A stretch of 64,000 bases of DNA from Geomonas agri (GTDB lineage: Bacteria; Desulfobacterota; Desulfuromonadia; Geobacterales; Geobacteraceae), in assembly GCF_020179605.1 (NCBI RefSeq), contig NZ_JAINZO010000001.1, positions 1,400,799-1,464,798 of the forward strand. Direction: 5' to 3'. The first letter of the stretch is position 1; each line of letters begins with the position of its first letter. The translations under genes and the position numbers were made by a program. The notes under the pieces are model-generated. The model was not told where the DNA came from. It did not search any database and was given only the letters and a program-made list of their open reading frames with translations. Shown here piece by piece: positions 36,660 through 58,061 of the stretch.

Positions 36660-37484
36660 ATGGGCGAACTTGACGATTTTCTGAATGAGCACGCCGAGGA
36701 TGACCTCGTCTGTTGGCTGCACCAGGCCGAAGCTGCGCGCCGGTATGGAACTCCCGTCAAGGAGGTAGAGCGAGCCATCCTCGAGCTGGGCCTGCTTCCG
36801 GCGCGTTACCAGCGCAACCGCACTACCGTCACCACCAAGGGGCAGCTTGCCCTCTTTTGCAGCCGGGTCGCCGTGATAGGGTGCGGCGGTCTTGGTGGCT
36901 ATGCTGTCGAGTTGCTGGCCCGCCTCGGCGTCGGCACCATTGTCGCGGTAGATCCCGATGTTTTCGAGGAGCACAACCTGAACCGGCAGCTCCTGGGCAA
37001 CATCGACGCGATAGGGATACCCAAGGTAATGGCGGCAGCGGACCGGGTTGCCGCCATAAACCCCGCCGTAACCCTCGTGCCGGTGCAGGAGGCGTTTTGC
37101 AGGGAGAATGCGCCGGAGATACTGGCCGGTTGCCAGGTAACCGTGGATGCGCTGGATAACGTGGAGAGCAGGCTGGATCTCGCGCAGGTATGCAGCCACC
37201 TTGGGTTGTCGTTGGTGCACGGCGCCATTGCGGGGTGGTACGGACAGGTGGCCACGCAGCTACCCGGAGAGGCGACCGTTAGCAACATCTACCGCGGCTG
37301 GGACTCCGGGCCCGGCGTAGAGAGCGAGTTGGGCAATCCGTCGTTCACTCCCGCCGCCATAGCGAGCGTACAGGCTGCCGAAGTTTGTAAATTGTTGCTC
37401 CGCCAGGGACATCCCCTGACCGGGCGCAAGATGGTTATCGATCTGCTGCACATGGACGTCGACCACTTCGACATACCCACCTAG
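36660..37484 (+). CDS. ThiF/MoeB/HesA-family adenylyltransferase
   Basis: An E1-like protein of 274 residues. VAVIGCGGLGGYAVELLARLG is the ATP-binding motif, VDPDVFEEHNLNRQLL holds the conserved Asp/Arg pair and TVDALDNVESR the metal-site Asp. Such enzymes adenylate the C-terminal Gly of a MoaD/ThiS carrier. The first 55 residues are an extra helical domain. The zinc-binding Cys pairs of MoeB are not evident. A MoaD-like carrier is encoded at 42679-42903 and an aldehyde:ferredoxin oxidoreductase follows, so a role in pterin (tungsten) cofactor assembly is inferred. AAGGA lies seven bases before the ATG. Confidence 0.85.
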   Translation: MGELDDFLNEHAEDDLVCWLHQAEAARRYGTPVKEVERAILELGLLPARYQRNRTTVTTKGQLALFCSRVAVIGCGGLGGYAVELLARLGVGTIVAVDPDVFEEHNLNRQLLGNIDAIGIPKVMAAADRVAAINPAVTLVPVQEAFCRENAPEILAGCQVTVDALDNVESRLDLAQVCSHLGLSLVHGAIAGWYGQVATQLPGEATVSNIYRGWDSGPGVESELGNPSFTPAAIASVQAAEVCKLLLRQGHPLTGRKMVIDLLHMDVDHFDIPT

Positions 37485-37649
37485 GCCCTTGCCCTGCCCT
37501 GATGCACTCCCGCATCACCTGCGACCCGACACCCCTCCCGTGCAGCCCCCCCTTACCTACCGTCCACGCCTGCTAACTCCTCGCCATGCAAAGCAACAAG
37601 CCCCGCCGTGCAATTCAGCATCCGTCTGCTGATGCCGTCCTGCCGGCGG

Positions 37650-37665
37650 GATGCACGGTTGCATC
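37650..37665. promoter_or_regulatory. Palindrome GATGCA-N4-TGCATC upstream of the first AOR gene
   Basis: A perfect dyad GATGCA-CGGT-TGCATC, 175 bases upstream of a sigma-54 promoter. The same dyad recurs at 44459, 44697, 47847 and 51334, always upstream of sigma-54-type genes. Probable enhancer (UAS) for the activator encoded at 44760. A second, looser pair (GCATC, GATGC) lies just upstream at 37618-37635. Confidence 0.7.
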
Positions 37666-37839
37666 ACCCGACAGCCGAGCCGTATACATTGTTCCCGTCG
37701 GATGCGAGGCGCACCAACTGCCGCCCCCGCTACCAAACTTGGCCCACGGCAACAAAAACACATTGTAACGGCCACTTACACGCCGCCTCGCGACGATAGC
37801 CGCACACTGCCCCGCGAGTACCGCGCCAACTGCAATGCG

Positions 37840-37855
37840 TGGCACACCCTGTGCT
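37840..37855 (+). promoter_or_regulatory. Sigma-54 promoter of the AOR/patA unit
   Basis: TGGCACACCCTGTGCT matches TGGCAC-N5-TTGCW at all but one position, with exact GG-N10-GC spacing. It lies 87 bases before the AOR start. The rest of the 457-base gap between ThiF and AOR holds no convincing gene. Confidence 0.85.
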
Positions 37856-37941
37856 ATCTGGACTGCGCCGACCAGGGGCGCGCCGAGTTTGCCGCCGCCC
37901 TGCCCGGTCATCTACTTCAGAAACTTAGTCACGGGGTGAAT

Positions 37942-39711
37942 ATGAATCTTTACATGGGAAAGATGCTGGTAGTTGACCTAAGCGCGAAAACGGTGACCAC
38001 GGAACCATTGCGCGCCGATTGGGCCCGTGAGTACTGGGGAGCGTGGGGGCTTGCACTGCGCTACTACACCGACGCGGTCTCCCCCGAGGTAGATCCGCTC
38101 GCGCCTGAAAACGTCGTGGTCCTCATGACCGCGCCGCTGTGCGGGACCCTGGTGCCGCTCGCTTCCCGCATGTGCCTGGTATCCAAGTCGCCGCACACCG
38201 GGACCATCTTCGAGTCCAACGTCGGCGGCTCCTTCGGCCCCGAACTGAAGTACGCGGGCTACGACGGCATCATCATCAAGGGGCGCGCCGAAGCACCTGT
38301 CTTCCTGAAGATAGACGATGACCTTGTTACCATCGAATGCGCGGAGCACATGACAGGCCAGGGCATCTTCGAGACCGAGAAGTTGATGGAAGCGGCGATG
38401 GGCGCCCACGGCGCCAAGACCCTCGCCATCGGCCCCGCCGCTGAAAACATGATCTCCTACAGCATGATCGGCTCCGAGTCCTACCGCCAGTTCGGCCGCG
38501 GCGGCACCGGCGCCCTGTTCGGCAGCAAGAATCTGAAAGGCGTCGTCTGCCGCGGTACCGGCGGCGTCGCAGTTGCCGACATGGCCAAGTTCCTGGAGCG
38601 TACCGACCACTACACCAGGAACGACCTGCTGTGCGACGACAACCTGTGGGCCAAGACCGACGGCACACCCATCCTGGTGGAAGTAACCAACGAGATGGGC
38701 ATTCATCCCACCCGGAACTACACCAAGGGGTTCAACGGCCGCAAAGAGACGCTCAATTCCGACGCCATCCAGGCCGCCAAACTCGGCAACCGCGCCTGCG
38801 CCTCCTGCCCGATGGCCTGCGGCAAGTTCACCCGGGTCAATTCCGCCGAGATCGAGGGGCCCGAGTACGAAACGCTCTGCCTGGGCGGCTCCAACTGTGA
38901 AATCCACGATCTCGAGGCGGTAATCCGCTTCAACCGCCTGTGCGACGACCTCGGGCTCGACACCATGACCTGCGGCAGCACCATAAGCCTCGCCATGGAG
39001 ATGACCGAAAACGGCGTGCACAACTTCAACCTCCGCTTCGGGCAGGTCGACGAGTACCTCAAGGTGGTCTACGAGATCGCCACACTCTCCACCGAGCGTG
39101 GCCGCGATCTTGCCAAGGGGGCGAAGCACCTGGCCGACAAGTACGGCGCCACCGACCTCAGCATGGAGGTGAAGGGCCTGGAGATGCCGGCCTACGAACC
39201 GCGAGGCAACTTCGGCATGGGCATCGCCTACGCCACCAGCGAGCGCGGTGCCTGTCACCTGCGCGCCTTCCCGATCTTTGCCACCGACCCGCACGACATC
39301 GACGCGCTGGTGACCGAGGTGGTGAACGCGCAAAACGCCAACTCGATCAAGTGGTCCCTCGGTTTCTGCGACTTCTGGGGCACCATCAACACCTCCATCG
39401 AGGCCGACCTCATGTCCACCGGTCTGGGTGAACCGGTCAGCGCCGAGGAACTGGACCAGGCCGGAGAGAGGATCTGGAACCTGAGCCGCCTCTTCAACCT
39501 CGCCACAGGCTTCACCGCGGCAGACGACACGCTCCCCAAGAAAATCATGGAGCGCCCGCTCGAGGCCGGTCCGCACGAGGGACGCGTATTCAGCCGTGCC
39601 GATCTCTCCCGCGCCCTGCAGTCCTACTATGAACTGCGCGACTGGAGTGCCAGGGGAATCCCCTCGTCGCGCAAGCTGGCCACCCTCGGCCTTGATAAAA
39701 CGACCTTATAG
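37942..39711 (+). CDS. aor: Aldehyde:ferredoxin oxidoreductase (tungsten enzyme)
   Basis: A protein of 589 residues of the AOR family, which oxidises aldehydes to carboxylic acids and reduces a low-potential ferredoxin, using a tungsten bis-pterin and one [4Fe-4S] cluster. Cluster ligands fit C286-x2-C289-x3-C293 and C476. FESNVGGSFGPELKYAGYDGI and GRGGTGALFGSKNLKG are conserved cofactor-binding segments. The ATG at 37942 is preferred to a GTG two codons earlier. It is followed at 11 bases by a ferredoxin-type partner and then by a putrescine-type aminotransferase, which suggests oxidation of the aminoaldehyde products. Preceded by a sigma-54 promoter. Confidence 0.92.
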   Translation: MNLYMGKMLVVDLSAKTVTTEPLRADWAREYWGAWGLALRYYTDAVSPEVDPLAPENVVVLMTAPLCGTLVPLASRMCLVSKSPHTGTIFESNVGGSFGPELKYAGYDGIIIKGRAEAPVFLKIDDDLVTIECAEHMTGQGIFETEKLMEAAMGAHGAKTLAIGPAAENMISYSMIGSESYRQFGRGGTGALFGSKNLKGVVCRGTGGVAVADMAKFLERTDHYTRNDLLCDDNLWAKTDGTPILVEVTNEMGIHPTRNYTKGFNGRKETLNSDAIQAAKLGNRACASCPMACGKFTRVNSAEIEGPEYETLCLGGSNCEIHDLEAVIRFNRLCDDLGLDTMTCGSTISLAMEMTENGVHNFNLRFGQVDEYLKVVYEIATLSTERGRDLAKGAKHLADKYGATDLSMEVKGLEMPAYEPRGNFGMGIAYATSERGACHLRAFPIFATDPHDIDALVTEVVNAQNANSIKWSLGFCDFWGTINTSIEADLMSTGLGEPVSAEELDQAGERIWNLSRLFNLATGFTAADDTLPKKIMERPLEAGPHEGRVFSRADLSRALQSYYELRDWSARGIPSSRKLATLGLDKTTL

Positions 39712-39722
39712 GAGACCTGACC

Positions 39723-40241
39723 TTGAAAAAAGAACTCTTCGCCAACCCGGATCTCTGCACCGGCTGCAACAGGTGCACTATCGCCTGCTCCGCAAAAAAG
39801 GAGGGGGTCTTTCAACCCAGCAAGGCCAGGCTGCGCGTGACCAACTTCCCACTGCGCGGCTACTCGGTCCCCAACATCTGCTTCCAGTGTCCCAAGGCGA
39901 ACTGCCTGGAAGCCTGCCCCACCACCGCCATGTTCCGCGACGGCAGCGGCGTCGTGCGCGTGAACCGCGACCTCTGCTCTGGCTGCGGCAGCTGCGTCAG
40001 CGCCTGTCCCTACGGCATGGTCGAGCAGGACGCCAAGGGGATCCCGTACAAGTGCGACCTGTGCGAGGGGGATCCGGTCTGCGTAAAGGAGTGCCACGCC
40101 GAAGCCCTGGTTCATGCAACCGGGGACGCCGCCCTCTTCCAGCTCAAGGCGGCGCAGATGAAAACTAGGCCCCAGTCGGGTACCCCGCTCGAAAAGAGGC
40201 ACAAGATAGCCGAAACATTGAAGAGAAGTTCACGAGGCTAG
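39723..40241 (+). CDS. Four-cluster ferredoxin-type subunit (AorA-like)
   Basis: A protein of 172 residues with four Cys groups: CTGCNRCTIAC, CFQCPKANCLEAC, CSGCGSCVSAC and CDLCEGDPVCVKEC, the pattern of HycB/DmsB-type electron-transfer subunits that bind four [4Fe-4S] clusters. The TTG start lies 11 bases after the AOR stop. By analogy with the AorA subunit of oligomeric AOR enzymes, it should take electrons from the tungsten subunit. No flavin subunit (AorC) is encoded nearby, so the final acceptor is unclear. Confidence 0.88.
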   Translation: MKKELFANPDLCTGCNRCTIACSAKKEGVFQPSKARLRVTNFPLRGYSVPNICFQCPKANCLEACPTTAMFRDGSGVVRVNRDLCSGCGSCVSACPYGMVEQDAKGIPYKCDLCEGDPVCVKECHAEALVHATGDAALFQLKAAQMKTRPQSGTPLEKRHKIAETLKRSSRG

Positions 40242-40317
40242 TCTTACCCCCTTGACACGAGGGGTATGCAATGCTTTAAACCAGATGCTTCACCTGAAGC
40301 GAAAAGGAGATGCAACC

Positions 40318-41676
40318 ATGATGAGAGACGTAGCCTACGCCCAGAGCGAGGCCCAGAGGATGTTGAACCTGCTCCTGACCCCGGAAAATGAAGTACCGGC
40401 GGCGGAGCGTGAAAAGATCGAGCAGGAAACGGTCGAGAACTTCGCCAACCACATCAACAAGGGGTGGCTCAAATATCGTAAGTCCATGACCGAGGCAGGC
40501 GACTTCGCCTCCGTCGAGTGGACCGGCCAGGGCTCCACCCTCACCGACACCCGCGGCCGCGAATTCATCGACATCCTGGGCGGCTTCGGGCTCTACTCTG
40601 CCGGCATCAGGCACCCGAAGATCGTTGCCGCCGCCAAGGCACAGCTCGACCGCAGCCCGCAGTACAGCCAGGAAATGCTCGACCCGCTGCGCGCACACCT
40701 GGGCAAGGTGCTCGCCCACCTGCTCCCCGGCGACATCCAGTACGGCTTCTTCATCAACTCCGGCACCGAGGCGGTCGACGGCGCCATGAAGCTCGCCAAA
40801 CTCTACACCGGCAAGGCCGGCTTCATCTCCACCGAGAAGGCCTTCCACGGCAAGACCCTCGGTCCGCTGACCCTCATGGGCAAGGCTATGTACCGCGAGC
40901 CGCTGTTGCCTCTTCTGGGTAACGTGCGCCACGTCCCCTACGGCGACGCGGCAGCCGTCGAGCGCGCCATCGTCTCCGCGCACCAGGTCGGCGACGGCAT
41001 CGCCGCCATGATCGCCGAGCCGATCCAGGGCGAAGCGGGCGCCATCGTGCCGCCGGACGATTACTGGCCGAAGCTCAGGGAGATCTGCGACAAGTACGGC
41101 GTGCTCCTGATCGCGGACGAGGTGCAGACGGGCCTGGGCCGCACCGGCACACTGTTCGGCGTGGACCACTGGAACGTGGTGCCGGACATCATCTGCCTGG
41201 GCAAGGCCCTGGGCGGCGGCGTCATCCCCTGCTCCGGCTTCTTCGCGAGCTCAAAGGTCTGGGAATGCATGGAACCGAACCCGTTCATGCACTCCACCAC
41301 CACCGGCGGCAACCCGATCGCCTGCGCGGCGGCGCTTGCCTACATCAACGTCATGCTGGAAGAAGACCTGCCGCGCCAGGCGCGCGAGAAGGGTGAGTAC
41401 ATCGTGGAGAAGCTGGAAGGTCTCAAGGCGAAGTACCCGCAGGTGCTGAAGGAAGTGCGCGGTAAGGGCCTCTTGATCGGCATGGACTTCCCGACCGACG
41501 AGATGGGGTGGCAGGTGGCTTCGGGGATGTTCTCCCGCCGCGTGCTGACCGCGGGTACCTTCATCAACGCCAAGAGCATCAGGATCGAGCCCGCCCTCAC
41601 CATCAGCTACGAGTTGATCGACGAGATGCTGGTACGGCTCGAAGATGTCTTCAGGAGCATTGCGAGCGAGCTCTAG
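40318..41676 (+). CDS. patA: Putrescine-type class III aminotransferase, copy 1
   Basis: A PLP enzyme of 452 residues. The stretch NHINKGWLKYRKSMTEAG, LGGFGLYSAGIRHP, NSGTEAVDGAMKLAK, IADEVQTGLGRTG and the PLP lysine K296 in CLGKALGGG resemble putrescine aminotransferase PatA (YgjG) more than GabT or ArgD. It would convert putrescine or a similar diamine and 2-oxoglutarate to aminoaldehyde and glutamate. A near-identical copy is at 48144. It lies 76 bases after the ferredoxin gene, with a small hairpin (40246-40266) between, and is probably in the AOR operon. Substrate is inferred from family resemblance. Confidence 0.85.
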   Translation: MMRDVAYAQSEAQRMLNLLLTPENEVPAAEREKIEQETVENFANHINKGWLKYRKSMTEAGDFASVEWTGQGSTLTDTRGREFIDILGGFGLYSAGIRHPKIVAAAKAQLDRSPQYSQEMLDPLRAHLGKVLAHLLPGDIQYGFFINSGTEAVDGAMKLAKLYTGKAGFISTEKAFHGKTLGPLTLMGKAMYREPLLPLLGNVRHVPYGDAAAVERAIVSAHQVGDGIAAMIAEPIQGEAGAIVPPDDYWPKLREICDKYGVLLIADEVQTGLGRTGTLFGVDHWNVVPDIICLGKALGGGVIPCSGFFASSKVWECMEPNPFMHSTTTGGNPIACAAALAYINVMLEEDLPRQAREKGEYIVEKLEGLKAKYPQVLKEVRGKGLLIGMDFPTDEMGWQVASGMFSRRVLTAGTFINAKSIRIEPALTISYELIDEMLVRLEDVFRSIASEL

Positions 41677-41730
41677 TCCGGCTGCGAGGCTGGCGAACCA
41701 TAGGGCGCCCTCCGGCGCCCGGAACACAAA

Positions 41731-41763
41731 AAGGGGGTGTCGCTTATGCGCACCCCCTTCTTC
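41731..41763 (+). terminator. Terminator after patA copy 1
   Basis: The stem AAGGGGGTG (41731-41739) pairs with CACCCCCTT (41751-41759), extended by CGC/GCG around a TTAT loop, followed by CTTCTT. A second GC-rich hairpin GGGCGCC/GGCGCCC (41703-41720) lies just before. Confidence 0.75.
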
Positions 41764-41827
41764 GGTCAATCGCGTTAACAGGGAGTTACTCGATCTCCTG
41801 TGAACCGTTACTCAGAGGTGAACCACC

Positions 41828-42667
41828 ATGCTCTCCGTACTATGCGGCATTGCTACCGCCTTTTGCTGGGGGACCTGCGACTTCATCGGCGGCACCAGCA
41901 GCCGCCGCGCCGGCGCCTTCGCCATGACCCTTGCCACCATCGCCTCCGGGCTCGCCATGCTGATCCCGGTCGCGCTCATGGTGCGGGAGACGCCGGTCAC
42001 CGCCCCGGGGTGGGCGCTCAACATGCTGGCCGGCGCTTTTGACGCGCTTGGCATACTGCTTTTGTACCGCTCCATGACGCTGGGGCGCCTGAGCCTCGCC
42101 GCGCCCCTGTCCGCGCTCACCGCGGCCGCCCTCCCGGTCGTGGCGGGGATGATCCTGCAGGGTATACCAGACCGGAAAGTCATCGTCGGCCTGGCGCTCG
42201 CACTGGCCTCGGTGTGGCTCTTGTGCCGCGAAGAGAGCGAGGGGCCGGCGGAACCTCTGCGGGCCATTCACATCTGGCTACCGCTTTTGTCAGGTAGCTG
42301 CCTCGGCATGTTTTTGATCCTGATGCACTCGGCAAGCGGCGGGGCCGTGATCTGGCCCATGGTTGCGGTTCGCTGCGGCGGAGTCCTGGTGCTGCTCATG
42401 TTCCTGGCGGCGGGGAAACAGGGGGGCGGCGAATGGGGCGCCCTTCCCTGGCGCCTGGTCGCGCTGAATGCCTTTCTCGACGTAGCCGGCAACGGCTTTT
42501 ACATTCTCGCTGGTCAGTCGGGGAGGATGGATGTGGCGGCGGTACTGAGCTCGCTCTTCCCGGGCGCCACGGTGTTCCTGGCTTGGTTGATACTCAAGGA
42601 GAGGGTTTCGAGGGTCCAGCTGGGCGGGGTGGCGACGGCGCTGGCAGCGATCGCCCTTTTGACCTGA
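41828..42667 (+). CDS. EamA/DMT-family transporter
   Basis: A membrane protein of 279 residues with about ten hydrophobic helices in two EamA halves (first half ends near 130, second from about 150; LPLLSGSCLGMFLIL, FPGATVFLAWLILKERV). Such proteins export or import small metabolites such as amino acids. The substrate is unknown. It sits behind a terminator and converges on the moaD-like gene with 11 bases between the stops. Its place inside the amine cluster suggests export of a pathway product or amine, but this is only context. Confidence 0.82.
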   Translation: MLSVLCGIATAFCWGTCDFIGGTSSRRAGAFAMTLATIASGLAMLIPVALMVRETPVTAPGWALNMLAGAFDALGILLLYRSMTLGRLSLAAPLSALTAAALPVVAGMILQGIPDRKVIVGLALALASVWLLCREESEGPAEPLRAIHIWLPLLSGSCLGMFLILMHSASGGAVIWPMVAVRCGGVLVLLMFLAAGKQGGGEWGALPWRLVALNAFLDVAGNGFYILAGQSGRMDVAAVLSSLFPGATVFLAWLILKERVSRVQLGGVATALAAIALLT

Positions 42668-42678
42668 GAACGGCAGGG

Positions 42679-42903
42679 TTATCCCCCGGAGACCAGCGGG
42701 AACAGCGCCAGGGTGTCGCCTTCCTTCATCACGTGGTCCAGTGTCGCAGGAGAGCCGTTGACGAGAACGACGCCGGGTCCTGCCCCGCTGAAGCCGAGTT
42801 CTGCGACGCCCGCCCGCACCGACGTGCCGGGTGCGTACTCGCGGACAGAGACCTTGAACCTGCCGATACGGTAGTGGGCGAATAGTTTCACGGTTACTTT
42901 CAT
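42679..42903 (-). CDS. MoaD/ThiS-family sulfur carrier protein
   Basis: A beta-grasp protein of 74 residues ending in Gly-Gly (FPLVSGG), the residue that is adenylated and thiocarboxylated. VTVKLFAHYRIG, VNGSPATLDHVMKEGDTLALFP fits MoaD. The ATG at 42903 has GGAG five bases upstream. It lies downstream of gabT on the same strand, and its likely E1 partner is the ThiF-like protein at 36660. It would donate sulfur for the dithiolene of the pterin cofactor used by the two AORs. Confidence 0.85.
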   Translation of the reverse strand: MKVTVKLFAHYRIGRFKVSVREYAPGTSVRAGVAELGFSGAGPGVVLVNGSPATLDHVMKEGDTLALFPLVSGG

Positions 42904-42962
42904 GCACTCTCCGGAAGTGACGCCGCAGCCGGCAGGGATGCCCCGCCGGCTGCGGCACGAGT

Positions 42963-44264
42963 TTAGGCTGAAAGCTCCTGCAGTGACTCCTCGATGATGG
43001 ACATGCCGCGCTCCAGTTCCGCATCGGTGATTACCAGCGGCATGAGCGTGCGGATAACGTTGCCGTGGTTGCCGCAGGAGAGCAATACGAGCCCCTTCTG
43101 GTAGCACATGCTGACCAGCTTCTTGGCCTCCGCCGCGGCAGGTTCCTTGGTCTCGCGGTCGCGCACCAACTCCATGGCCAGCATCGGCCCCTTGCCCCGT
43201 ACCTCCCCGATGATTTCATAGCGCTGTTGCAGCTCGTCCATGCGGGCGCGCATCTTGACGCCCAGCTCCTCAGCCCGCGCCAGCAGGCCATCCTTGGTGA
43301 ATATCTCGAGCACGGCCTGGGCCGCGGCAAGGGCGATCGGATTGCCTCCGTAGGTGCCGCCCAGTCCACCCACGTGCGGCGAACTCATGATATCCGCACG
43401 TCCGGTGACAGCCGAGATGGGGAGCCCGCCTCCCAGGCTCTTGGCCGTGGTGACCAGGTCCGGCACCACGCCCCAGTGGTCGATTGCGAACAGCTTGCCG
43501 GTGCGCCCCATCCCGGTCTGCACCTCGTCGATGATCAGGAGGATGCCGTGCCGGTCACAGATCTCGCGCAGCCTGGGGAAATATTCAGGGGGCGGCGTGA
43601 CGAAGCCACCTTCGCCCTGGATCGGCTCGGCGATGATGGCCGCGGTTTTCTCGGCGGCGACGTGGCTGATGAAGAATTCTTCCAGGTGGTCGGCGCAGGC
43701 CATGTTGCAGCCCGGGTGCTGCAGCCCGAACGGACAGCGGTAGCAGTAGGCGTAGGGCATCCGGTACACTTCCGGCGCGAAAGGACCGAATCCGAGCTTG
43801 TACGGCTTCACCTTGCTGGTCAGGGTCATCGTGAGGTTGGTGCGGCCGTGAAAGCCGTTCTCGAAGGCAATCACCGCGGGGCGCCCGGTCGCGTGGCGCG
43901 CAATCTTGACCGCATTCTCTACCGCCTCGGCACCGGAATTGAGGAAGATAGTCATCTTGTCGCCATCCCCCGGCGCAAGTTCGTTCATTTGCGCGGCGAG
44001 GTCGACGTAGAGGTCGTAGGGAACGATATGGAAACAGGTGTGCAGGAACTTTTCGGCCTGGTCCTTGACTGCCGCGACGACCTTGGGATGGCAGTGACCG
44101 ACGTTGGCCACGCCGATGCCCCCGGCGAAGTCGATCAGTTCGCGTCCTTCCGTATCAACGATGATCGCGCCGCGGGCCTCCTTCACGAAAGAGGGGGACA
44201 GCACGCTCACCCCCGGCGGTACATGCTTGCTGCGCAGCGCTTGCGACACTTCTTGGGTTCTCAT
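42963..44264 (-). CDS. gabT: 4-aminobutyrate aminotransferase
   Basis: A class III PLP aminotransferase of 433 residues. FAGGIGVANVGHCHPKVVAA, NSGAEAVENAVKIAR, GFHGRTNLTMTLTSKVKPYK, IIDEVQTGMGRTG and K275 in TTAKSLGGG match GabT closely. It converts GABA and 2-oxoglutarate to succinic semialdehyde and glutamate. No succinic semialdehyde dehydrogenase is present in the window, so the AOR enzymes are the obvious candidates for the next step. It forms a unit with the moaD-like gene and has a probable sigma-54 promoter. Confidence 0.9.
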   Translation of the reverse strand: MRTQEVSQALRSKHVPPGVSVLSPSFVKEARGAIIVDTEGRELIDFAGGIGVANVGHCHPKVVAAVKDQAEKFLHTCFHIVPYDLYVDLAAQMNELAPGDGDKMTIFLNSGAEAVENAVKIARHATGRPAVIAFENGFHGRTNLTMTLTSKVKPYKLGFGPFAPEVYRMPYAYCYRCPFGLQHPGCNMACADHLEEFFISHVAAEKTAAIIAEPIQGEGGFVTPPPEYFPRLREICDRHGILLIIDEVQTGMGRTGKLFAIDHWGVVPDLVTTAKSLGGGLPISAVTGRADIMSSPHVGGLGGTYGGNPIALAAAQAVLEIFTKDGLLARAEELGVKMRARMDELQQRYEIIGEVRGKGPMLAMELVRDRETKEPAAAEAKKLVSMCYQKGLVLLSCGNHGNVIRTLMPLVITDAELERGMSIIEESLQELSA

Positions 44265-46756: not shown

Positions 46757-46772
46757 TGGCACACCTCGTGCT
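46757..46772 (+). promoter_or_regulatory. Sigma-54 promoter of the outer-membrane barrel gene
   Basis: TGGCACACCTCGTGCT matches TGGCAC-N5-TTGCW with one mismatch and exact GG-N10-GC spacing, 87 bases before the start. It is nearly identical to the promoter at 37840. Confidence 0.85.
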
Positions 46773-48074: not shown

Positions 48075-48090
48075 TGGCATGTCACGTGCA
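48075..48090 (+). promoter_or_regulatory. Sigma-54 promoter of patA copy 2
   Basis: TGGCATGTCACGTGCA fits TGGCAC-N5-TTGCW with two mismatches and exact GG-N10-GC spacing, 54 bases before the start codon. Confidence 0.75.
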
Positions 48091-49596: not shown

Positions 49597-51117
49597 ATGA
49601 CAGATCAAGTAAAAGAAGTGCATCTGTTGGAAACTGGATTCGAATCGTTCGACGATGGCGGCCTCAAACGGGGTCTCAAGGACCGCCACGTCATGATGAT
49701 CGCACTGGGGGGCATCATCGGCTCGGCATTCTTCCTCGGCACCGGTTCCATCGTCAAGGACGTCGGCCCGTCCGCCTTCATCACCTACGCCCTGGGCGGC
49801 CTCATCGTCTACCTGGTCATGATCGCCCTGGGCGAACTGGCTGTCGCCATCCCCATCTCGGGCTCCTTTGTCACCTACGCATCCGAGTTCATCTCCCCCT
49901 CCTGGGCAGCCGGAGTCGGCTGGAGCTACGTCTTCAACTGGATGGCCTACATACCAGCGGAATGTATCGCCGGCGGCATCATCATGAAGACCTTCGTGCC
50001 CGGGACCAGCGAGTGGATGTGGGCCGTGCTATTCGGCATCGTCATCACCGTGGTCAACATCTCCCACGTTGAGGCCTTTGGCGAGATCGAGTTCTGGCTC
50101 TCCATCGTCAAGGTCATGGCCATCGTCGTTTTCTGCGTCGTGGCAATCCTGATCTACTTCAACGTGATCCCGAACAACCACCCGCAAGGGATCGGCACCA
50201 GCTTCCTTACCGGCAACGGGGGAATCTTCCCCAACGGCGGCTTCGTGCTACTGACCACCATGGTCATGCTCCTGGTCAACTTCCAGGGGGTCGAGATCAT
50301 CGGTCTCACCGCCGGTGAAGCCAAGGATCCCAGCAAGACCATCCCCACCGCCGTGCGCAGTATCACCGTCAGGGTCATCATGCTGTTCATGGTCCCGGTA
50401 TTCCTGCTGGTGACCATCTTCCCGTGGGCCAAGGCCGGGGTGGAAGGTGGCTCCGTCTTCGCCGCGGCGCTGGAGCAGTACGGACTGCACTGGGCCGCCG
50501 GCCTCTTCAGCTTCGTGGTCCTCACCGCCGCCCTGTCCTGCGCCAACTCTGGCCTGTACTCCACGGTCCGCGTCACCTGGGCCATGGCGCGCGAAGGCAT
50601 GGCGCCTAAGTTCCTTGGTGCCTTGAACAAGCACCAGGTCCCCGGCAACGCCGCCCTCTTCGTCATCGCAGGCGTCTGGTTCTTCCTCGCCGGTTCCTAC
50701 TTCTTCTCCGCGTCCAAGGTTTTCGTGGCGCTGTTGTCGATCTCCGGTTTCACCGGCACCATCGCCTGGATCTCCATCATCTGGTCGCAGATGAACTTCC
50801 GCAAGCGCCTGGTGGCCAACGGTTATAGCACCAAGGATCTCAAGTACGTGGCGCCCGGCTTCCCGTACTTCGCGCACCTGGGCATCTGGAGCATGGTGGG
50901 CTGTCTCGTCTTCACCGCCTTCAACGAGAGCCTGCGCATCGGTTTCTACGCAGGCGTGCCGCTGCTGGTCCTGCCCATTATCATCCACAAGATGAGGAAG
51001 GTGGATCATGAAGTGCTGGCCAGGCTGCACAGCAAGGTCCGTTTCGACGACGTCTTCAAACCCCGCACCGCCGGCATCGTCGATTACCCCGCAGACTGCG
51101 CCGCCGAAGCCGACTAA
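49597..51117 (+). CDS. APC-superfamily amino-acid/amine permease
   Basis: A protein of 506 residues with about 12 membrane helices. The opening motif MMIALGGIIGSAFFLGTGSIV and the segment NFQGVEIIGLTAGEAKDPSKT are typical of the AAT group of the APC superfamily (GabP, AroP, LysP). It would take up amino acids, GABA or related amines by proton symport. Position behind the putrescine-type aminotransferase supports a pathway substrate. The exact substrate is not readable. A strong terminator follows. Confidence 0.88.
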   Translation: MTDQVKEVHLLETGFESFDDGGLKRGLKDRHVMMIALGGIIGSAFFLGTGSIVKDVGPSAFITYALGGLIVYLVMIALGELAVAIPISGSFVTYASEFISPSWAAGVGWSYVFNWMAYIPAECIAGGIIMKTFVPGTSEWMWAVLFGIVITVVNISHVEAFGEIEFWLSIVKVMAIVVFCVVAILIYFNVIPNNHPQGIGTSFLTGNGGIFPNGGFVLLTTMVMLLVNFQGVEIIGLTAGEAKDPSKTIPTAVRSITVRVIMLFMVPVFLLVTIFPWAKAGVEGGSVFAAALEQYGLHWAAGLFSFVVLTAALSCANSGLYSTVRVTWAMAREGMAPKFLGALNKHQVPGNAALFVIAGVWFFLAGSYFFSASKVFVALLSISGFTGTIAWISIIWSQMNFRKRLVANGYSTKDLKYVAPGFPYFAHLGIWSMVGCLVFTAFNESLRIGFYAGVPLLVLPIIIHKMRKVDHEVLARLHSKVRFDDVFKPRTAGIVDYPADCAAEAD

Positions 51118-51630: not shown

Positions 51631-51646
51631 TGGCACACCTTATGCT
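51631..51646 (+). promoter_or_regulatory. Sigma-54 promoter of gdhB-AOR2-aminotransferase
   Basis: TGGCACACCTTATGCT matches TGGCAC-N5-TTGCW with one mismatch and exact GG-N10-GC spacing, 128 bases before the chosen gdhB start. An in-frame start codon at 51627 would put this promoter inside the gene, which argues for the later start. Confidence 0.85.
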
Positions 51647-51773: not shown

Positions 51774-54752
51774 ATGGACATTGTTGATGACCGTATTTCC
51801 GGAAAGGTGCAGCGCGTCATGAAGCGCAACAGCACGCTCGCCAGCCGGAACCTCGAGTGGATTCATTCCCGAATTCATCCCTATTTCTTCATCACCATGC
51901 AGGAAGAGATCGACGCCATCGCCATCCTGGCGAGCGGGCTGCACAACCTGGCGAACAACCGCAGAATGATCCTGGCGGACCGGGACCGGATGCTCATCCA
52001 GGCAGTGCTGAACCGCCCGGGGTCCTTGTACGAGACGCTGCGCACCTTGAAGGAGCGCGACATCTCCTACGCCCATTTCGCCGTTTCCAACGGGCCGTTG
52101 CCGGACTCGGAGCACCATCTCGAACTGCAGCGCTTCGAGTTCGAGCGCAAGACGCCGCAGGAGGTTGCCGCCAGCACCGATCGGCCCGGTAGCGCCATCA
52201 AGCGCCGCATCGCCGCTGCCCTCAAGCGGGACTACCCCTCTTTCGACCACAAGCGGCTCGACTATCTCCTCGGTATTCTCTGGGTCAACAACCCGGATTA
52301 CGTCCGCATCTCACCCACTACCCGCGTGGCGCGCACGCTCTGGCTGTTCCAGCAGACCAGGAACAACAGCGGTGTCTACCTCGACGCCGAGCCCGCCAGC
52401 AGCGGGGAAACCAGGCTCATGTTCGCGGTCGGGAACCCGCCCCAGCGCGACTTCCTGCAGCAGATCATGGAGGTGTTCAACCGGCTCGAGGTGAGCGTGA
52501 AGAGGGCCTACTGCCTCACCATCAGTAACGAGATCCATCCCTACTTCCTGGGCAACTTCTACGTCACCACCCGCGACGGTGGCGAGGTGACCCGCGGTTC
52601 GGAACTTTTCCTGCAGCTGCAGCGCGAGCTCTACAACACCCAGATCCTCTCCACCGCCTCCCCTTCCTACACCGAGCTGGTGGTCAAGGGGGTGATGAGT
52701 GGCGAGGACGCGCTCCTGGTCAACGCGATGATCGGCTTTTGCCACACCAACCTGGCGCACACCCATCCGGACAGCTTCGACCTGGAAGGGATCATGCGTG
52801 CCTTCCACAACCACCCCGACATCGCCCAGCAGCTGGTTAAGCTCTTCCGCGCCCGCTTCGAGCCTGCTGTCGCCGACCGCGAGGCGCACTACGCCGCGGT
52901 CTTGGCCGAAACCGAACGGGTCGTGGACAGCTACAACACCGGCCACGGCTTCCTGGACGAGTTCCGCCGCACCATCTTCCGCTGCGCCCTGCTCTTCATC
53001 CGTTACACGCTGAAGACCAACTTCTACGTGCTGGAGAAAAGCGCCCTAGCCTTCCGCCTCGACCCGACCTACATGGCGGAAATGGATCCCAAGTTTTCGG
53101 CGGACCTGCCGCCGGAGCGCCCTTTCAGGATCACCTATTTCCATGCCCGCTACGGGCTTGGGTACCACATCGGTTTCTCGGATATCGCCCGTGGCGGCTG
53201 GCGCACCCTGATCACCAACGGGCGCGACGACTACGTCACCTGTGCCAACTCGCTCTTCCGCGAAAACTACGTGCTCGCCCACACCCAGCACCTGAAGAAC
53301 AAGGACATCTACGAAGGTGGCTCGAAGATGGTTGTGGTGCTCGACGCCGCCGGCATCCAGGACCGCGACCTGGTCACCCAGCGCCTGTACAAGCTTCAGT
53401 ACTCGCTGATCAACGCCTTCCTGGACATCTTCGTCACCGAGAACGGGCGCGCCAGGGATCCGCGCGTCGTCGATTACTACCGCGAGGACGAGCCGATCGA
53501 GCTCGGTCCCGACGAGAACATGCACGACGCCATGGTCGAACTGGTGGCGGCCCAGTCGGTGCGGCGTGGCTATCTCCTCGGCGTCGGCATCATGTCCAGC
53601 AAGAAAGTGGGCATCAACCACAAGGAGTACGGGGTCACCTCGGCCGGAGTAATCAGGTTCGCCGAGATCACCATGGCGGAGCTCGGCATCGACATGCACC
53701 GCGACCCCTTTTCGGTTAAGTTCACCGGCGGCCCCAACGGCGACGTGGCAGGCAACTCCATGCACCTGTTGCTGGAGCGCTGCCCCAAGGTCGCCATCCG
53801 GCTCATCATCGACGGCACCGGCGCGCTCTACGACCCCTCCGGCGCCGATCGGGACGCCCTCGGACGCATCGTGCTGCAGTCCGACGTTGACGCTTTCGAC
53901 GCGCAGGCGCTGCACCCCGGCGGTTTCATCATCTACCGCAACCGGACCCGGCGCGAGGGAATGAAGGAGCTCTACCTCAAGGTGATGCGCGACGAGAAGG
54001 GCCTGCACGAGCTATGGGTGTCCAACGACGAGTTCTACCGCGAGTACAACTCGCTGGTGTTCACCGTGGCCGCAGACCTTTTCATACCGGCAGGTGGCAG
54101 ACCGGAAACGGTCAGGGAGCACGACTGCGACCGCTTCTTCGCCGATGACCGCACCCCGCTCACCCGCGCTATCGTGGAGGGCGCCAACTCGTTCATCACC
54201 CCCAAGGCGCGCATCGAGTTGCAAAGGCGTGGCATCGTGCTGATGCGGGACGCCTCGGCCAACAAGTGCGGCGTGATATCGTCATCCTACGAGATCATCG
54301 GCAACCTGCTGCTCTCCGAGAAGGAGTTCCTGGAGCAGAAGGAGCCTTACGTGGGGGACGTGATCCGGATCCTGAACAAGAGGGCCGAGGACGAAGCACG
54401 GCTCATCTTCCGCCGCCACCGCGAGGCCGCCGGGGCCCAGCTGTACACCGAGATCTCCGACGCCATCAGCACCGAGATCAACGCGCAGTACGCCAAGCTG
54501 TTCGCCTTCTTCCAGAAATACCCGCACCTGTGCGACCGGCCGTTGTACCGGAAGGCGATCCTGGCGCACCTCCCCGCGATGCTGGCCGAGAAACCGGCCT
54601 ACCGGATGCGTACCAAGGGGCTTCCCGCCAAGTACAAGTACGCCATCCTCTCCAGCGAGATCGCCTCGTCCATGGTCTACCGGGGCGAAAAAGGCAACGA
54701 CGGCTACCGTGAACTGGTGGAGGCCCACCTTAAGAGGCAGCCGGCGGCCTGA
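51774..54752 (+). CDS. gdhB: Large NAD-specific glutamate dehydrogenase
   Basis: A protein of 992 residues, the length of the roughly 115-kDa class of NAD-glutamate dehydrogenases. GYHIGFSDIARGGWRTL, YEGGSKMVVVLDA, SSKKVGINHKEYGVTS and FTGGPNGDVAGNSMHLLLE are conserved dehydrogenase segments; the first 450 residues are the family's extra regulatory region. It deaminates glutamate to 2-oxoglutarate, ammonium and NADH. In this context it would regenerate the 2-oxoglutarate used by the aminotransferases. GGGGAG lies before the ATG at 51774. Sigma-54 promoter and enhancer-like sites precede it. Confidence 0.88.
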   Translation: MDIVDDRISGKVQRVMKRNSTLASRNLEWIHSRIHPYFFITMQEEIDAIAILASGLHNLANNRRMILADRDRMLIQAVLNRPGSLYETLRTLKERDISYAHFAVSNGPLPDSEHHLELQRFEFERKTPQEVAASTDRPGSAIKRRIAAALKRDYPSFDHKRLDYLLGILWVNNPDYVRISPTTRVARTLWLFQQTRNNSGVYLDAEPASSGETRLMFAVGNPPQRDFLQQIMEVFNRLEVSVKRAYCLTISNEIHPYFLGNFYVTTRDGGEVTRGSELFLQLQRELYNTQILSTASPSYTELVVKGVMSGEDALLVNAMIGFCHTNLAHTHPDSFDLEGIMRAFHNHPDIAQQLVKLFRARFEPAVADREAHYAAVLAETERVVDSYNTGHGFLDEFRRTIFRCALLFIRYTLKTNFYVLEKSALAFRLDPTYMAEMDPKFSADLPPERPFRITYFHARYGLGYHIGFSDIARGGWRTLITNGRDDYVTCANSLFRENYVLAHTQHLKNKDIYEGGSKMVVVLDAAGIQDRDLVTQRLYKLQYSLINAFLDIFVTENGRARDPRVVDYYREDEPIELGPDENMHDAMVELVAAQSVRRGYLLGVGIMSSKKVGINHKEYGVTSAGVIRFAEITMAELGIDMHRDPFSVKFTGGPNGDVAGNSMHLLLERCPKVAIRLIIDGTGALYDPSGADRDALGRIVLQSDVDAFDAQALHPGGFIIYRNRTRREGMKELYLKVMRDEKGLHELWVSNDEFYREYNSLVFTVAADLFIPAGGRPETVREHDCDRFFADDRTPLTRAIVEGANSFITPKARIELQRRGIVLMRDASANKCGVISSSYEIIGNLLLSEKEFLEQKEPYVGDVIRILNKRAEDEARLIFRRHREAAGAQLYTEISDAISTEINAQYAKLFAFFQKYPHLCDRPLYRKAILAHLPAMLAEKPAYRMRTKGLPAKYKYAILSSEIASSMVYRGEKGNDGYRELVEAHLKRQPAA

Positions 54753-54805
54753 CCACGAACCGGGTGCCGCGCGTGCCGCACCCGAGAACTTACAGAGAGG
54801 GATAC

Positions 54806-56638
54806 ATGCGATTAACCACAAATACCCCCGGCAGCGACCCGTCTGCGGTGCTCTACAGCCGCTGTACGGTGTCGCTCGGCAACGGGCAGATCATCATGGA
54901 AGAGATCCCCTGCCGCAACCTCGAAGAGGTGATGGGCGGTTTCGGACGCTCGTTCCAGATGCTTGCCGAGCGGCAGGTACAGGAGGCCTACACCCCGGAG
55001 AACCCGCTCATCCTGAATACGGGGCTCCTCACCGGGAGCAACGTCATGACCGGCCTGCGCAGCTATTTCTCGGGCTACAGTCCGCTCAAGCAGTCCAACA
55101 AGGGGCTTCCCGCAGCGATGTGGTCCGCGGCAAGCGGCAAGTTCGGCGCCAAGCTGAAGTGGACCGGCATTGATGAGGTAGTATTCGAGGGTCGTGCCGA
55201 CAACCCGGTCTATGCTGTGTTCAAGGCAGGCGCCGAGGGACCGGAGGCAGAGCTGAAGCCGGCCGCGCACCTGCTCGGGCTCAGCAGTCACGACAAGATC
55301 ATGGTGCTGCAAAAGGAGTATCCGGGGGCGCATTTCGCGGTCATCGGCCCCGCAGGCGAGCATTTCAAGCAGGTTTTCATGGGGGCGATCGCCCTCAGCA
55401 CGGAGAACCAGTTGAAGACGGGCGAGGACAAGTGCCGCTTTGCCGGGCGCGGCGGCATGGGAAGCCTCATGGGCTACAAGAACCTGGTCGCCATCGTGGC
55501 CCAAAGCGAGGATCAACTGCCGCCGATCACTCCGGAGATGAGGGACGTGAACCGCGACGCGGTCAAGGCAGGCGGCTCCAACCGCTTCCAGCCCCTGGCG
55601 CAAGGAGGCGGTGGCGGAACCTGGGCCAACCTCGAGGTTCTGGACGTGTTCAAGGCGGTGCCGGAAAACAATTTCCGCTCCGTCGCCGCGGACGGCATCC
55701 GGGGGCTCTACCGCGACAACGTGGAAAAAAACCTCCACGTGCGCAGCGAGGCCTGCTTCCGCTGCGGCATCCGCTGTCATAACAACATCTACCGCAAGAA
55801 GGAGGACGGTAGCGCGGGCGAGTTCATCGCCAAGTTCGACTTCGAGCCGCTCAACCTGTTCGGCACCAACCTTGGCATCCACGAGGGGGATAAGGTCGCC
55901 GAACTGATCCGGTTCTGCGACAACCTGGCCATGGACGCCATCTCCCTCGGCACCACCATCGCCTACATCCTCGACTACAACGCGCGTCACCCCCAAAACC
56001 GCATCCTGAACGGAGCGACCTTCGGGGATTACGAGAAGGTGCGCGAACTGGTGCTCGCCACCGGTAGCGGTTCCTGCGCCCTTATTGGCCAGGGGGTCAA
56101 GCGCCTGTCGACCCTTCTCGGGGAGACCGGCTACGCAATGCAGGTCAAGGGGCTGGAACTGCCGGCCTACCTGCCGGAAACGAACCCGGGCTACGCCTTT
56201 GCCATTGCCGGCGGGCACATGTCCATGGGCACGCACATGCTGCTTGCCAGGGACGGCAAGGTAGGGCTCGATGAATGGGTCCATGCCGTCACGAAGCAGG
56301 GGCTTTTGCAGGTCGGCTACGACATGATCGGCCTGTGCAAGTTCGTGGGGCTCGGCATGGGGCACGATTTCGTGGTGCGCGCAGTAAAAGCCGCAACCGG
56401 CTTGGAAATCGACTCGGACCAGATCGTTGCGGCAGTGCGCCGTGCCTACCTCAGGGGACTAGCCCTGGAACAGCGCCAGGGGTACCAGGACGACGAGTAC
56501 ACGCTGCCGCAGCAGGTATTCAGCACCCCGAATCCGAACATCGCCCTCCCCCGCTTTGTGACGCCGCAATTTCTCGAGGAGATGAAAAAGCAGGTCTGGG
56601 ACGCATTCGCCCCAGAGATGGAGGGGCTTTTAGCCTGA
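54806..56638 (+). CDS. Second aldehyde:ferredoxin oxidoreductase family protein
   Basis: A protein of 610 residues in the AOR family but clearly different from the one at 37942. Cluster ligands fit C317-x2-C320-x3-C324 and C511; FAGRGGMGSLMGYKNLVAIV is the cofactor-binding Gly-rich segment. A poly-Gly stretch (AQGGGGGTW) is unusual. No ferredoxin-type partner follows, so a soluble ferredoxin is the likely acceptor. It lies 53 bases after gdhB and 34 before an aminotransferase, suggesting that it oxidises the aldehyde which that enzyme makes. AGAGAGGG precedes the ATG. Confidence 0.88.
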   Translation: MRLTTNTPGSDPSAVLYSRCTVSLGNGQIIMEEIPCRNLEEVMGGFGRSFQMLAERQVQEAYTPENPLILNTGLLTGSNVMTGLRSYFSGYSPLKQSNKGLPAAMWSAASGKFGAKLKWTGIDEVVFEGRADNPVYAVFKAGAEGPEAELKPAAHLLGLSSHDKIMVLQKEYPGAHFAVIGPAGEHFKQVFMGAIALSTENQLKTGEDKCRFAGRGGMGSLMGYKNLVAIVAQSEDQLPPITPEMRDVNRDAVKAGGSNRFQPLAQGGGGGTWANLEVLDVFKAVPENNFRSVAADGIRGLYRDNVEKNLHVRSEACFRCGIRCHNNIYRKKEDGSAGEFIAKFDFEPLNLFGTNLGIHEGDKVAELIRFCDNLAMDAISLGTTIAYILDYNARHPQNRILNGATFGDYEKVRELVLATGSGSCALIGQGVKRLSTLLGETGYAMQVKGLELPAYLPETNPGYAFAIAGGHMSMGTHMLLARDGKVGLDEWVHAVTKQGLLQVGYDMIGLCKFVGLGMGHDFVVRAVKAATGLEIDSDQIVAAVRRAYLRGLALEQRQGYQDDEYTLPQQVFSTPNPNIALPRFVTPQFLEEMKKQVWDAFAPEMEGLLA

Positions 56639-56672
56639 GCAACAAGGATACTTTCACCAAAACGGAGGAACG

Positions 56673-58061
56673 ATGATCACGGAAATGAAGACATCCTACA
56701 GGGTGGTGTCAGACGCGCGACTGGTCGAACTCAGGGCTCGCGAGGACGCGCTCTTCGAGCGGCGCACCCCCAACTCGAAAAAGACCTTCCAGCGCGCGCA
56801 CGAGATGCTCCTGAACGGCGTCCCGATGCCCTGGATGGGGGACTGGGGCACCTCGCACCCTATCTTCGTACAGCAGGCACAGGGAAACAAGATCACTGAC
56901 TTGGACGGCAACACGTACCTCGACTTCTGCCTGGGAGACACCGGCGCCATGTTCGGCCACTCGCCCGAACCGACCGCAGCGGCGGTTGCCGACCAGGTAC
57001 GCAAGGGGATCACGACCATGCTCCCCTCGGAGTACGCCCTGGATGCCGGCTTGGAGCTTGGTCGCCGTTTTGGCCTCCCCTTCTGGCAGGTCGCCATGAC
57101 CGCTACCGAGGCGAACCGCTACGTGCTCAGGATCTGCCGGGCCCTTACCGGCAGGCACAAGGTCCTGGTCATGAACGAGTGCTACCACGGCTCGATCGAC
57201 GAGACGCTGCCGCACATCGCCCCCGACGGGAAGCTGGAGCTTCGCTCCGATTTCGACATGAACCCCGGCGTCCCCAAGGACGCGCTGACCCGCGTGGTGG
57301 AGTTCAACGACATCCCCGCCCTGGAGCGTGAACTCGCCCACGGCGACGTTGCCTGCGTCCTCGCCGAACCGGTCATGACCAACTGCGGCATGGTGCTTCC
57401 TGCGGAAGGGTACCACGAGACCCTGAGGGATCTCTGCACCAAGTACGGCTGCATCCTGATCATCGACGAGACCCACACCCTCTCCACCGGTCCCGGCGGG
57501 TACACGGCAGCCTACGGGCTCAAGCCGGATTTCGTCACCCTGGGTAAATCCATTGCCGGCGGCATCCCCGTCGCCGTGTACGGGTTTACCAAGGAGATTG
57601 CGGAGCGGATCAACGCCTCGTTCGGCAAGAAGAGCGTTTCCGACCCGATGGGCATCGGCGGCACCCTTTCCGGCAACATGTTCGCAATCCGGGCCATGGA
57701 GGCAACCCTAAGGCACGTGGCGACCGAAGAGGCATTCGAGCGGATGATCGCCGGGCAGAACAGGCTATCTGACCGGCTCGACGCTACGCTGAAAAAGTAC
57801 GACATCCCCTGGAGCGTGACCAGGAGCGGAGCGCGTTGCGAACTGCAGTTCATGCCGCGCCTGCCGGTGAACGGCTCCGAGGCAAAGGCTCATTTCGACT
57901 GGGAGCTCATCTACTACACCCACCTCTACCTGGCTAACCGCGGGGTGCTCATTACCCCCTTCCACAACATGATGCTGGTCCCGCCTATGGCGACTGACGA
58001 GCAGATCGATACCCTGGCGCAGGTCTGGAGCGACTGCATCGCCGAATTGGCAGCCAGGTAG
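56673..58061 (+). CDS. Class III aminotransferase, glutamate-1-semialdehyde aminotransferase-like
   Basis: A PLP enzyme of 462 residues. DLDGNTYLDFCLGDTGAMFGHSP, MNECYHGSIDET, IIDETHTLSTGPGG and the PLP lysine in TLGKSIAGGIPVAVYG resemble the HemL branch, but no other haem genes are near and the N-terminal 45 residues are longer than in HemL. It is likely an amine or amino-acid transaminase. Its operon with gdhB and the second AOR gives a complete set: transamination, aldehyde oxidation and acceptor recycling. Substrate unknown. Confidence 0.85.
   Translation: MITEMKTSYRVVSDARLVELRAREDALFERRTPNSKKTFQRAHEMLLNGVPMPWMGDWGTSHPIFVQQAQGNKITDLDGNTYLDFCLGDTGAMFGHSPEPTAAAVADQVRKGITTMLPSEYALDAGLELGRRFGLPFWQVAMTATEANRYVLRICRALTGRHKVLVMNECYHGSIDETLPHIAPDGKLELRSDFDMNPGVPKDALTRVVEFNDIPALERELAHGDVACVLAEPVMTNCGMVLPAEGYHETLRDLCTKYGCILIIDETHTLSTGPGGYTAAYGLKPDFVTLGKSIAGGIPVAVYGFTKEIAERINASFGKKSVSDPMGIGGTLSGNMFAIRAMEATLRHVATEEAFERMIAGQNRLSDRLDATLKKYDIPWSVTRSGARCELQFMPRLPVNGSEAKAHFDWELIYYTHLYLANRGVLITPFHNMMLVPPMATDEQIDTLAQVWSDCIAELAAR

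Follow-up and report, generated by a model that had tools for sequence, protein, structure and literature searches.

This study describes a gene cluster in a 64,000-nucleotide stretch of a 4.68-Mb Geomonas genome (contig 1, bases 1400799-1464798; the whole stretch is called the window, and the genome is G000 in the comparisons). The cluster appears to be a sigma-54-controlled set of genes for the degradation of diamines and 4-aminobutyrate (GABA), in which two predicted aldehyde:ferredoxin oxidoreductases (AORs) would carry out the aldehyde oxidations; judging from the sequence comparisons, we put the probability of this reading at about 65%. The apparent replacement of aldehyde dehydrogenases (ALDHs) by AORs within the cluster is well supported by a natural exchange of genes, in which an AOR or the dehydrogenase GabD occupies the same position of a syntenic GABA cluster.

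The cluster and its predicted pathway

An earlier note on this DNA had named two AOR genes, a ferredoxin-type subunit, two PatA-like aminotransferases, GabT, a HemL-like aminotransferase, a glutamate dehydrogenase (GDH), a permease and a barrel gene, and family scans recovered every one of them. Its statement that no PatD/GabD-type ALDH is present holds for the window, which contains none of the four PF00171 genes of the genome. WorX, a ThiF/E1-like gene and a sigma-54 activator were absent from its list. The possibility of mis-called genes was ruled out, as the family scans, the congeners and the fold evidence were concordant. The genes follow the order ThiF/E1-like gene, AOR1, ferredoxin-like subunit, PatA1, EamA transporter, WorX (-), gabT (-), sigma-54 activator, barrel protein, PatA2, APC permease, GDH, AOR2 and HemL-like transaminase. 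The features on which the argument rests are as follows (model scores in bits, with cut-offs after the sign):

37840..37855, +, sigma-54-type -24/-12 site before the AOR1 operon (TGGCACACCNNNTGCT pattern)
37942..39711, +, AOR1, catalytic (WorL) subunit, predicted 4-aminobutanal oxidoreductase (PF02730/PF01314)
39723..40241, +, ferredoxin-like WorS/AorA subunit (4Fe-4S Pfam matches; 16 Cys in four groups)
40318..41676, +, PatA1, predicted putrescine/diamine aminotransferase (NF008570 651 > 612; TIGR03372 496 < 658.65)
42679..42903, -, WorX, ThiS/MoaD-like, 74 aa, C-terminal GG (PF02597 33.6 > 22.5)
42963..44264, -, GabT, GABA--2-oxoglutarate aminotransferase (TIGR00700 581 > 506.65)
44760..46541, +, sigma-54-dependent activator with PAS domain, PrdR-like (PF00158 227 bits, PAS, HTH)
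46757..46772, +, sigma-54-type site before barrel/PatA2/permease (TGGCACACCNNNTGCT pattern)
48144..49502, +, PatA2, second PatA copy, near-identical to PatA1 (NF008570 651 > 612)
51631..51646, +, sigma-54-type site before GDH-AOR2 (TGGCACACCNNNTGCT pattern)
51774..54752 (start approximate), +, large NAD-type GDH (PF05088 82.9 > 22.8; PF00208 77.5 > 23.4)
54806..56638, +, AOR2, divergent WorL, predicted succinic-semialdehyde oxidoreductase (AFOR_N 128, AFOR_C 154 bits)

AOR1, its small subunit and PatA1 run in one direction with gaps of 10-80 bp and form a predicted operon, and AOR2 shares another predicted operon with the large GDH. The open reading frame (ORF) of AOR1 as listed starts at 37651, and its likely start is 37942. 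AOR1 matched AFOR_N at 234 bits and AFOR_C at 365 bits (cut-offs 29.8 and 27) and the structures 9mqx and 1aor at 451 and 406 bits, and its alignment keeps the CxxCxxxC motif, the downstream Cys and the equivalents of E313 and H448. AOR2 carries both AFOR domains and the AOR fold. The active-site motifs are complete in both proteins, which keep the [4Fe-4S] Cys ligands, Thr243, Glu313, Tyr427 and His448 (PfAOR numbering, 1aor alignments read by eye; the second-shell residue list was taken from PMC13328260). AOR2 as a degenerate paralogue was ruled out, since these ligands and second-shell residues are kept. The 16-Cys WorS-like gene directly adjoins AOR1, which would suit a Class II tungsten oxidoreductase (WorL + WorS with four [4Fe-4S] clusters, and ferredoxin as carrier). 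AOR2, with no WorS adjoining, fits Class I (WorL alone, sometimes with WorX) by gene neighbourhood; a ThiS-like gene was found in 64 of the 80 named AOR2 loci and in the window cluster, where WorX sits just downstream of gabT. Four congeners likewise have a ThiS-like match, at a distance of 68-73 bp from their gabT.

The E. coli pat/gab route runs through PatA, PatD, GabT and GabD. The cluster would share its aminotransferase steps and intermediates, with a PatA-like enzyme and GabT, and differs in the aldehyde oxidations, which are assigned to the AOR family, no PatD having been found and GabD lying outside the cluster. In the pathway that we propose, PatA would transaminate putrescine (or a similar diamine) to 4-aminobutanal, which AOR1 with its four-cluster small subunit, as a Class II-type tungsten oxidoreductase, would oxidize to GABA. 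GabT would then transfer the amino group of GABA to 2-oxoglutarate, yielding succinic semialdehyde and glutamate; AOR2, as a Class I-type enzyme, would oxidize succinic semialdehyde to succinate, and the GDH is predicted to recycle glutamate to 2-oxoglutarate. The assignment of this GDH as an NAD-GDH rests on a weak similarity (53 bits to the solved NAD-GDH, PDB 7a1d). Tungsten is the predicted metal and ferredoxin the predicted acceptor of both AORs, and co-induction of the genes would be expected.

Concerning regulation, the exact TGGCACACCNNNTGCT pattern, which was picked after the sites had been seen, occurs three times in the window against 0.01 expected, each time inside the cluster, and a site-like sequence lies at 48075, near PatA2. 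A generic sigma-54 consensus gave no enrichment in the window (8 sites vs 2-8 in ten shuffles). Congeners carry similar sites ahead of the corresponding genes, as does G234, from another family (before the AOR1 operon in G173, G174, G181 and G234), and such sites also precede LivK in GABA clusters. These recurring -24/-12 sites fit with the presence of a sigma-54 activator gene in the cluster, which scored 389 against the 795 of NF041552. Four congeners, followed across overlapping loci, repeat the gene order of the cluster, which indicates that the arrangement is not due to chance; in G165, contig ends break the order between AOR1 and PatA1.

Both PatA copies pass NF008570 and stay below TIGR03372. 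As they agree at 440 of the 446 residues that were compared, and at 96.7% of the DNA over 1,375 bp, they would represent one activity encoded twice, and the idea of two different enzymes was ruled out, with just 6 of the 446 residues differing. Between PatA1 (40345-41673) and PatA2 (48171-49499), DNA identity is 96.9-99.7% within each of five Geomonas genomes and 89.7-97.4% between genomes, although both positions are shared, which suggests that the copies evolve in concert by gene conversion.

AOR2/GabD exchange and co-occurrence across genomes

The window genome has a second locus (contig 2, ~1.165-1.180 Mb) with the order gabT / sigma-54 activator / LivK-H-M-G-F / WorX / AOR2-type / GDH. 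In the arrangement gabT / sigma-54 activator / LivKHMGF / X / GDH, slot X holds WorX and an AOR2-type gene in 15 loci, 12 of them from Geomonas (G000, G164, G165, G168-G174, G176, G181) and the others from G256, G232 and G224. All 15 have WorX placed between LivF and the AOR2-type gene; G232 has two small ORFs in between and its GDH on the opposite side, and the G224 contig ends inside AOR2. The slot is occupied by GabD in three loci (G186, G147 and G142, with NF008415 scores of 882, 888 and 867 > 828), and their flanks are orthologous to those of the second locus of the window genome (LivF 84-87% and GDH 73-78% identical). Contig ends cut off the state of the slot in G148 and G178, and G247 C3 has WorX with no AOR2 in the fetched stretch. 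In the GabT tree, the GabD-type loci are interleaved with the AOR2-type ones, with at least four changes among the labelled rows (a quick tree with SH-aLRT and no bootstrap, its AOR2/ALDH labels assigned by hand and one overlapping copy, G234_L111, dropped). Neighbourhood matches were dropped below 35% of the query length in the AOR2-locus comparison and below 30% in later ones, as were GabT rows with <50% identity or <330 aligned residues.

The wider sample comprised 277 genomes of the class, 19 of them Geomonas; in the AOR searches, scoring was limited to the four top first-look candidates of each genome, and gene coordinates for co-location were transferred by hand between searches. Within Geomonas, the AOR2 clade, at 64-100% identity, has exactly the same distribution as GabT, both occurring in 13 of the 19 genomes and neither in 6. 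Of the 277 genomes, 13 have PatA, 12 have AOR1 and 10 have the two together (Fisher p 3e-14, a value in which kinship overstates independence). AOR1 lies within 3 kb of PatA for 9 of the 13 AOR1 genes, and contig ends separate the two genes in a tenth genome, G165. Three genomes have PatA with no full AOR1 match. A truncated 70% AOR1 adjoins PatA in G028, and an AFOR fragment lies next to GabT in G142, where the contig ends (the AOR1 search missed the truncated gene in G028 and perhaps one in G142). In the third, G036, neither AOR1 nor the AOR2 clade was found, and PatD (NF010000 653 > 615) and an ALDH resembling succinic semialdehyde dehydrogenase (SSADH; best family NF006915, 584 < 730) are encoded ~11-14 kb downstream of PatA.

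At E <= 1e-130, 49 GabT loci were collected, and 29 of these, in 22 genomes, have an AOR2-clade gene within 15 kb, for which simple arithmetic gives a chance of ~1% per locus. The remaining 20 loci include those with GabD in the slot (G186, G147, G142 C263), those with other ALDHs close by (G036, G090), those on short or ending contigs (G028, G071, G142 C25, G148, G178, G246), and G217, G247 C3 and the second G078 copy. Six belong to another GabT lineage (G001, G046, G057, G060, G103, G116), and no recognised aldehyde oxidiser was found there, save a 28% ALDH near that of G060.

Dehydrogenases elsewhere and alternative readings

The four PF00171 genes of the window genome encode a canonical GabD (NF008415 850 > 828), PutA, ProA and one further ALDH, with no PatD among them. 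The GabD search in the five full-cluster Geomonas genomes (G000, G165, G173, G174, G181) returned just GabD and PutA at E <= 1e-60 and no PatD; in this search, the true PatD of G036 scores 351 bits. The earlier note had proposed that AORs stand in for both PatD and GabD, with a genome search for homologues as a check. The PatD half of this check came out as expected, and the GabD half turned up the canonical gene ~1.1 Mb from the cluster. The proposal itself gains from the slot exchange, the PatA-AOR1 co-occurrence and the AOR2-GabT match in the 19 Geomonas genomes, and is narrowed by that GabD: because the genome encodes it, AOR2 need not be the only oxidiser of succinic semialdehyde. The comparisons thus partly support the interpretation of the note: AOR2 would take the place of GabD within the cluster, and need not do so for the cell as a whole.

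GabD exceeds the cut-off in 18 of the 19 Geomonas genomes irrespective of GabT. The exception is Geomonas limicola (G171), which has the AOR2 GABA cluster and for which the GabD search at E <= 1e-60 returned PutA only; the same holds for G224, from another family. Among the other AOR2-slot genomes outside Geomonas, the best GabD-search scores were just under the cut-off in G063 and G012 (769 and 762 bits) and 314-348 bits in G069, G070, G076, G078, G106, G234 and G247, whose ALDHs may be SSADHs of other subfamilies.

Several observations weigh against our reading. Apart from the canonical GabD of the window genome, GabD passes the NF008415 cut-off in the non-Geomonas AOR2-slot genomes G256 and G232, and additional ALDHs are present in the AOR1-PatA genomes that were checked beyond this genus. 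Geomonas limicola has a divergent ALDH ~2 kb beyond GDH and 5 kb from AOR2, which may be an unusual SSADH. G217 has AOR1-PatA, GabT and GDH, and no AOR2-clade gene was found in it; G142 has GabD in the slot plus a different AOR next to GabT; and G036 carries two AORs of other types elsewhere in its genome, with its PatD/SSADH-like pair lying past the sigma-54 activator and GDH and hemL in between. GabT was present in only 18 of the 80 named AOR2-clade loci, many of them on short contigs, and the clade's neighbours without GabT include iron-containing alcohol dehydrogenase, a divergent ALDH-like protein, MmgE/PrpD and CCG/FAD-oxidase genes, among others. A GabD of 75-76% adjoins the AOR2-clade gene in two loci. 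Furthermore, related genomes and neighbourhoods are not independent observations.

The AORs might be broad-range detoxifiers of aldehydes that are co-expressed with amine catabolism, the flux of succinic semialdehyde passing through the distant GabD. Characterised AORs are described as broad-range and often assigned to detoxification in PMC6365974 and PMC13328260, the former also reporting that ALDH and AOR are induced together, for one and the same aldehyde, in Aromatoleum aromaticum on phenylalanine, and the presence of GabD in nearly all Geomonas genomes would suit such a role. However, GabD also occurs in the 6 Geomonas genomes without GabT of this family, so that its distribution does not follow the use of GABA as that of AOR2 does; moreover, AOR2 sits in GabD's own slot, and the GabD search found no GabD in G171 and G224. 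We consider this account rather unlikely. It is also rather unlikely that the cluster serves the breakdown of a different amine, such as cadaverine, 5-aminovalerate or beta-alanine, through the HemL-like transaminase and PatA, the aldehydes being homologues of those proposed here. The model scores of PatA, which passes NF008570 and not TIGR03372, would allow it, as would a HemL-like transaminase with no known substrate, the L-2-hydroxyglutarate oxidase gene adjoining the cluster and the proposal of glutaric semialdehyde for FOR-type enzymes; the match of GabT to the GABA transaminase model, the identity of the syntenic-slot gene as GabD and the ALDH near PatA in G036, which passes the aminobutyraldehyde dehydrogenase model, argue against it.

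The linkage of AORs and aminotransferases could also be an inherited, genus-level gene order with no functional meaning, as Geomonas makes up much of the sample and related neighbourhoods are not independent. This is highly improbable and was already disfavoured, since the gene order varies between families and the partners persist, the slot content is exchanged, and GabT lies near AOR2 in the 29 loci counted above.

Returning to the AOR-based pathway, the varied contexts of the AOR2 clade show that the substrate is not fixed by the clade, and AOR2 as an enzyme specific to GABA was ruled out by the same neighbours. Together with G217 and a third AOR type, these contexts point to a semialdehyde oxidoreductase with aminotransferases in its neighbourhood more readily than to a single set substrate. 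We regard as evenly balanced the wider proposal that tungsten/ferredoxin enzymes perform both oxidations from putrescine through GABA to succinate and that the AOR2 clade is a widespread ferredoxin-linked carboxylate-semialdehyde family, repeatedly exchanged with GabD-type dehydrogenases in anaerobic bacteria.

The third AOR type, which matches the AOR of L015 at 44-45%, follows immediately downstream of gabT both in G142 (L208:3147-4856, -) and in G148 (L219:9636-11333, -), and the G142 cluster that holds it also holds GabD. GabD was found close to WorX and AOR2 in L092 (6547-8013; 870 > 828 bits) and L131 (75%), so that a single locus can hold enzymes of both types. The divergent ALDH-like protein, of 525-528 aa, stands next to AOR2-clade genes in 13 of the 80 named loci (for example, L070:11092-12669, L078:10778-12361, L079:10790-12373 and L091:10964-12550); the best scores of the two that were scanned were 112-113 bits, far under every NCBIfam cut-off, and a GQxC motif is present in the three aligned. 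Clusters of an AOR2-clade gene with iron-containing alcohol dehydrogenase were seen in L081 (11014-12168, -; by Pfam) and in L133, L135, L162 and L181 (by homology). Liv-type ABC genes accompany them, in many cases together with a sigma-54 regulator, and these clusters perhaps serve the breakdown of hydroxy acids or diols.

Comparison with known systems and further genes

Pelobacter carbinolicus is an anaerobe related to Geomonas. PMC4275255 describes its tungsten-dependent acetaldehyde:ferredoxin oxidoreductases in catabolism, and our system would share with it the use, by an anaerobe, of such an AOR to oxidize an aldehyde arising in catabolism, with electron acceptors of low potential; unlike in our system, its aldehyde is acetaldehyde from ethanol and not an amine-derived semialdehyde. 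The same paper places the acetaldehyde/acetate couple at -580 mV, and the better energy yield through low-potential ferredoxin suggested by the earlier note is plausible; PMC13328260 states, however, that ferredoxin-only aldehyde oxidation can become unfavourable when the aldehyde is very scarce and the acid abundant, so any such gain would be hypothetical. The cluster would also resemble AorABC of A. aromaticum (8c0z; PMC6365974) in its predicted four-cluster small subunit, in the maturation-type genes close by and in an AOR serving amino-acid breakdown alongside ALDH. Unlike AorABC, the predicted AOR1 operon has no FAD/NAD subunit (AorC), and its partner is PatA and not phenylalanine genes. 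We know of no aminotransferase cluster for the FOR of Pyrococcus furiosus. This FOR (1b25/1b4n) differs from our AORs in being archaeal and only ~23% identical, with AOR2-FOR alignments that reach only to FOR residue 437; according to PMC12096430, it binds glutarate in vitro and is a proposed oxidiser of glutaric semialdehyde.

A 2026 classification counts 5 of 92 tungsten-oxidoreductase clades with a member of defined physiological role and gives GAPOR-for-GAPDH as a precedent for non-orthologous replacement (PMC13328260); its main text nowhere mentions putrescine, GABA, aminotransferase, transaminase or glutamate dehydrogenase. Searches of open-licence PMC text gave no paper that, judged by its title or the opening of its abstract, connects AOR with putrescine or GABA catabolism. 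The cluster and the natural gene swaps point to specific, testable substrates (4-aminobutanal and succinic semialdehyde) for two tungsten-oxidoreductase types, and Geomonas limicola, with its AOR2 GABA cluster and no GabD in the GabD search, is a natural test strain. If the reading is true, a textbook pathway has undergone a non-orthologous replacement of the GAPOR-for-GAPDH kind, and the breakdown of polyamines and GABA can supply anaerobes with low-potential electrons.

The cluster contains the following further genes:

36567..37484, +, ThiF/MoeB-like E1 adenylyltransferase, presumed to act in cofactor maturation (PF00899 164 > 28.1 bits)
41828..42667, +, EamA transporter, kept in congeners (PF00892 69 > 28.2)
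46859..47659, +, predicted outer-membrane barrel (AlphaFold2 + Foldseek)
49597..51117, +, APC-family amino-acid/amine permease (PF00324 325 > 24.6)
56673..58061, +, PRK07046-type HemL-like transaminase (NF005453 627 > 425; nearest PDB 5ykr)

The coordinates of the ThiF/E1-like gene are those of the ORF as listed, and its true start may be later; it is kept next to AOR1 in the congeners G173, G174 and G181. The top NCBIfam matches of the APC permease were under their cut-offs, PF00324 being the model passed, and the PDB entry closest to the HemL-like transaminase is annotated 'probable aminotransferase'. No Pfam or NCBIfam family matched the barrel protein; its strand-rich AlphaFold2 model (pLDDT 76.7, pTM 0.71) found porins in Foldseek (e.g., PcoB, TMt 0.69, and NanC, TMt 0.68), and homologues of 37-91% identity occur in 10 other loci, the gene being kept in such clusters across families. 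From the model, this protein is probably a porin and is a candidate amine porin.

Outside the cluster, a class-III aminotransferase gene (G000:C1:1399274-1400530) ends immediately upstream of the window start. The L-2-hydroxyglutarate oxidase gene adjoining the cluster lies at 34197-35438 (-) of the window (NF008726 311.5 > 299 bits), and in E. coli, lhgO adjoins gabDTP.

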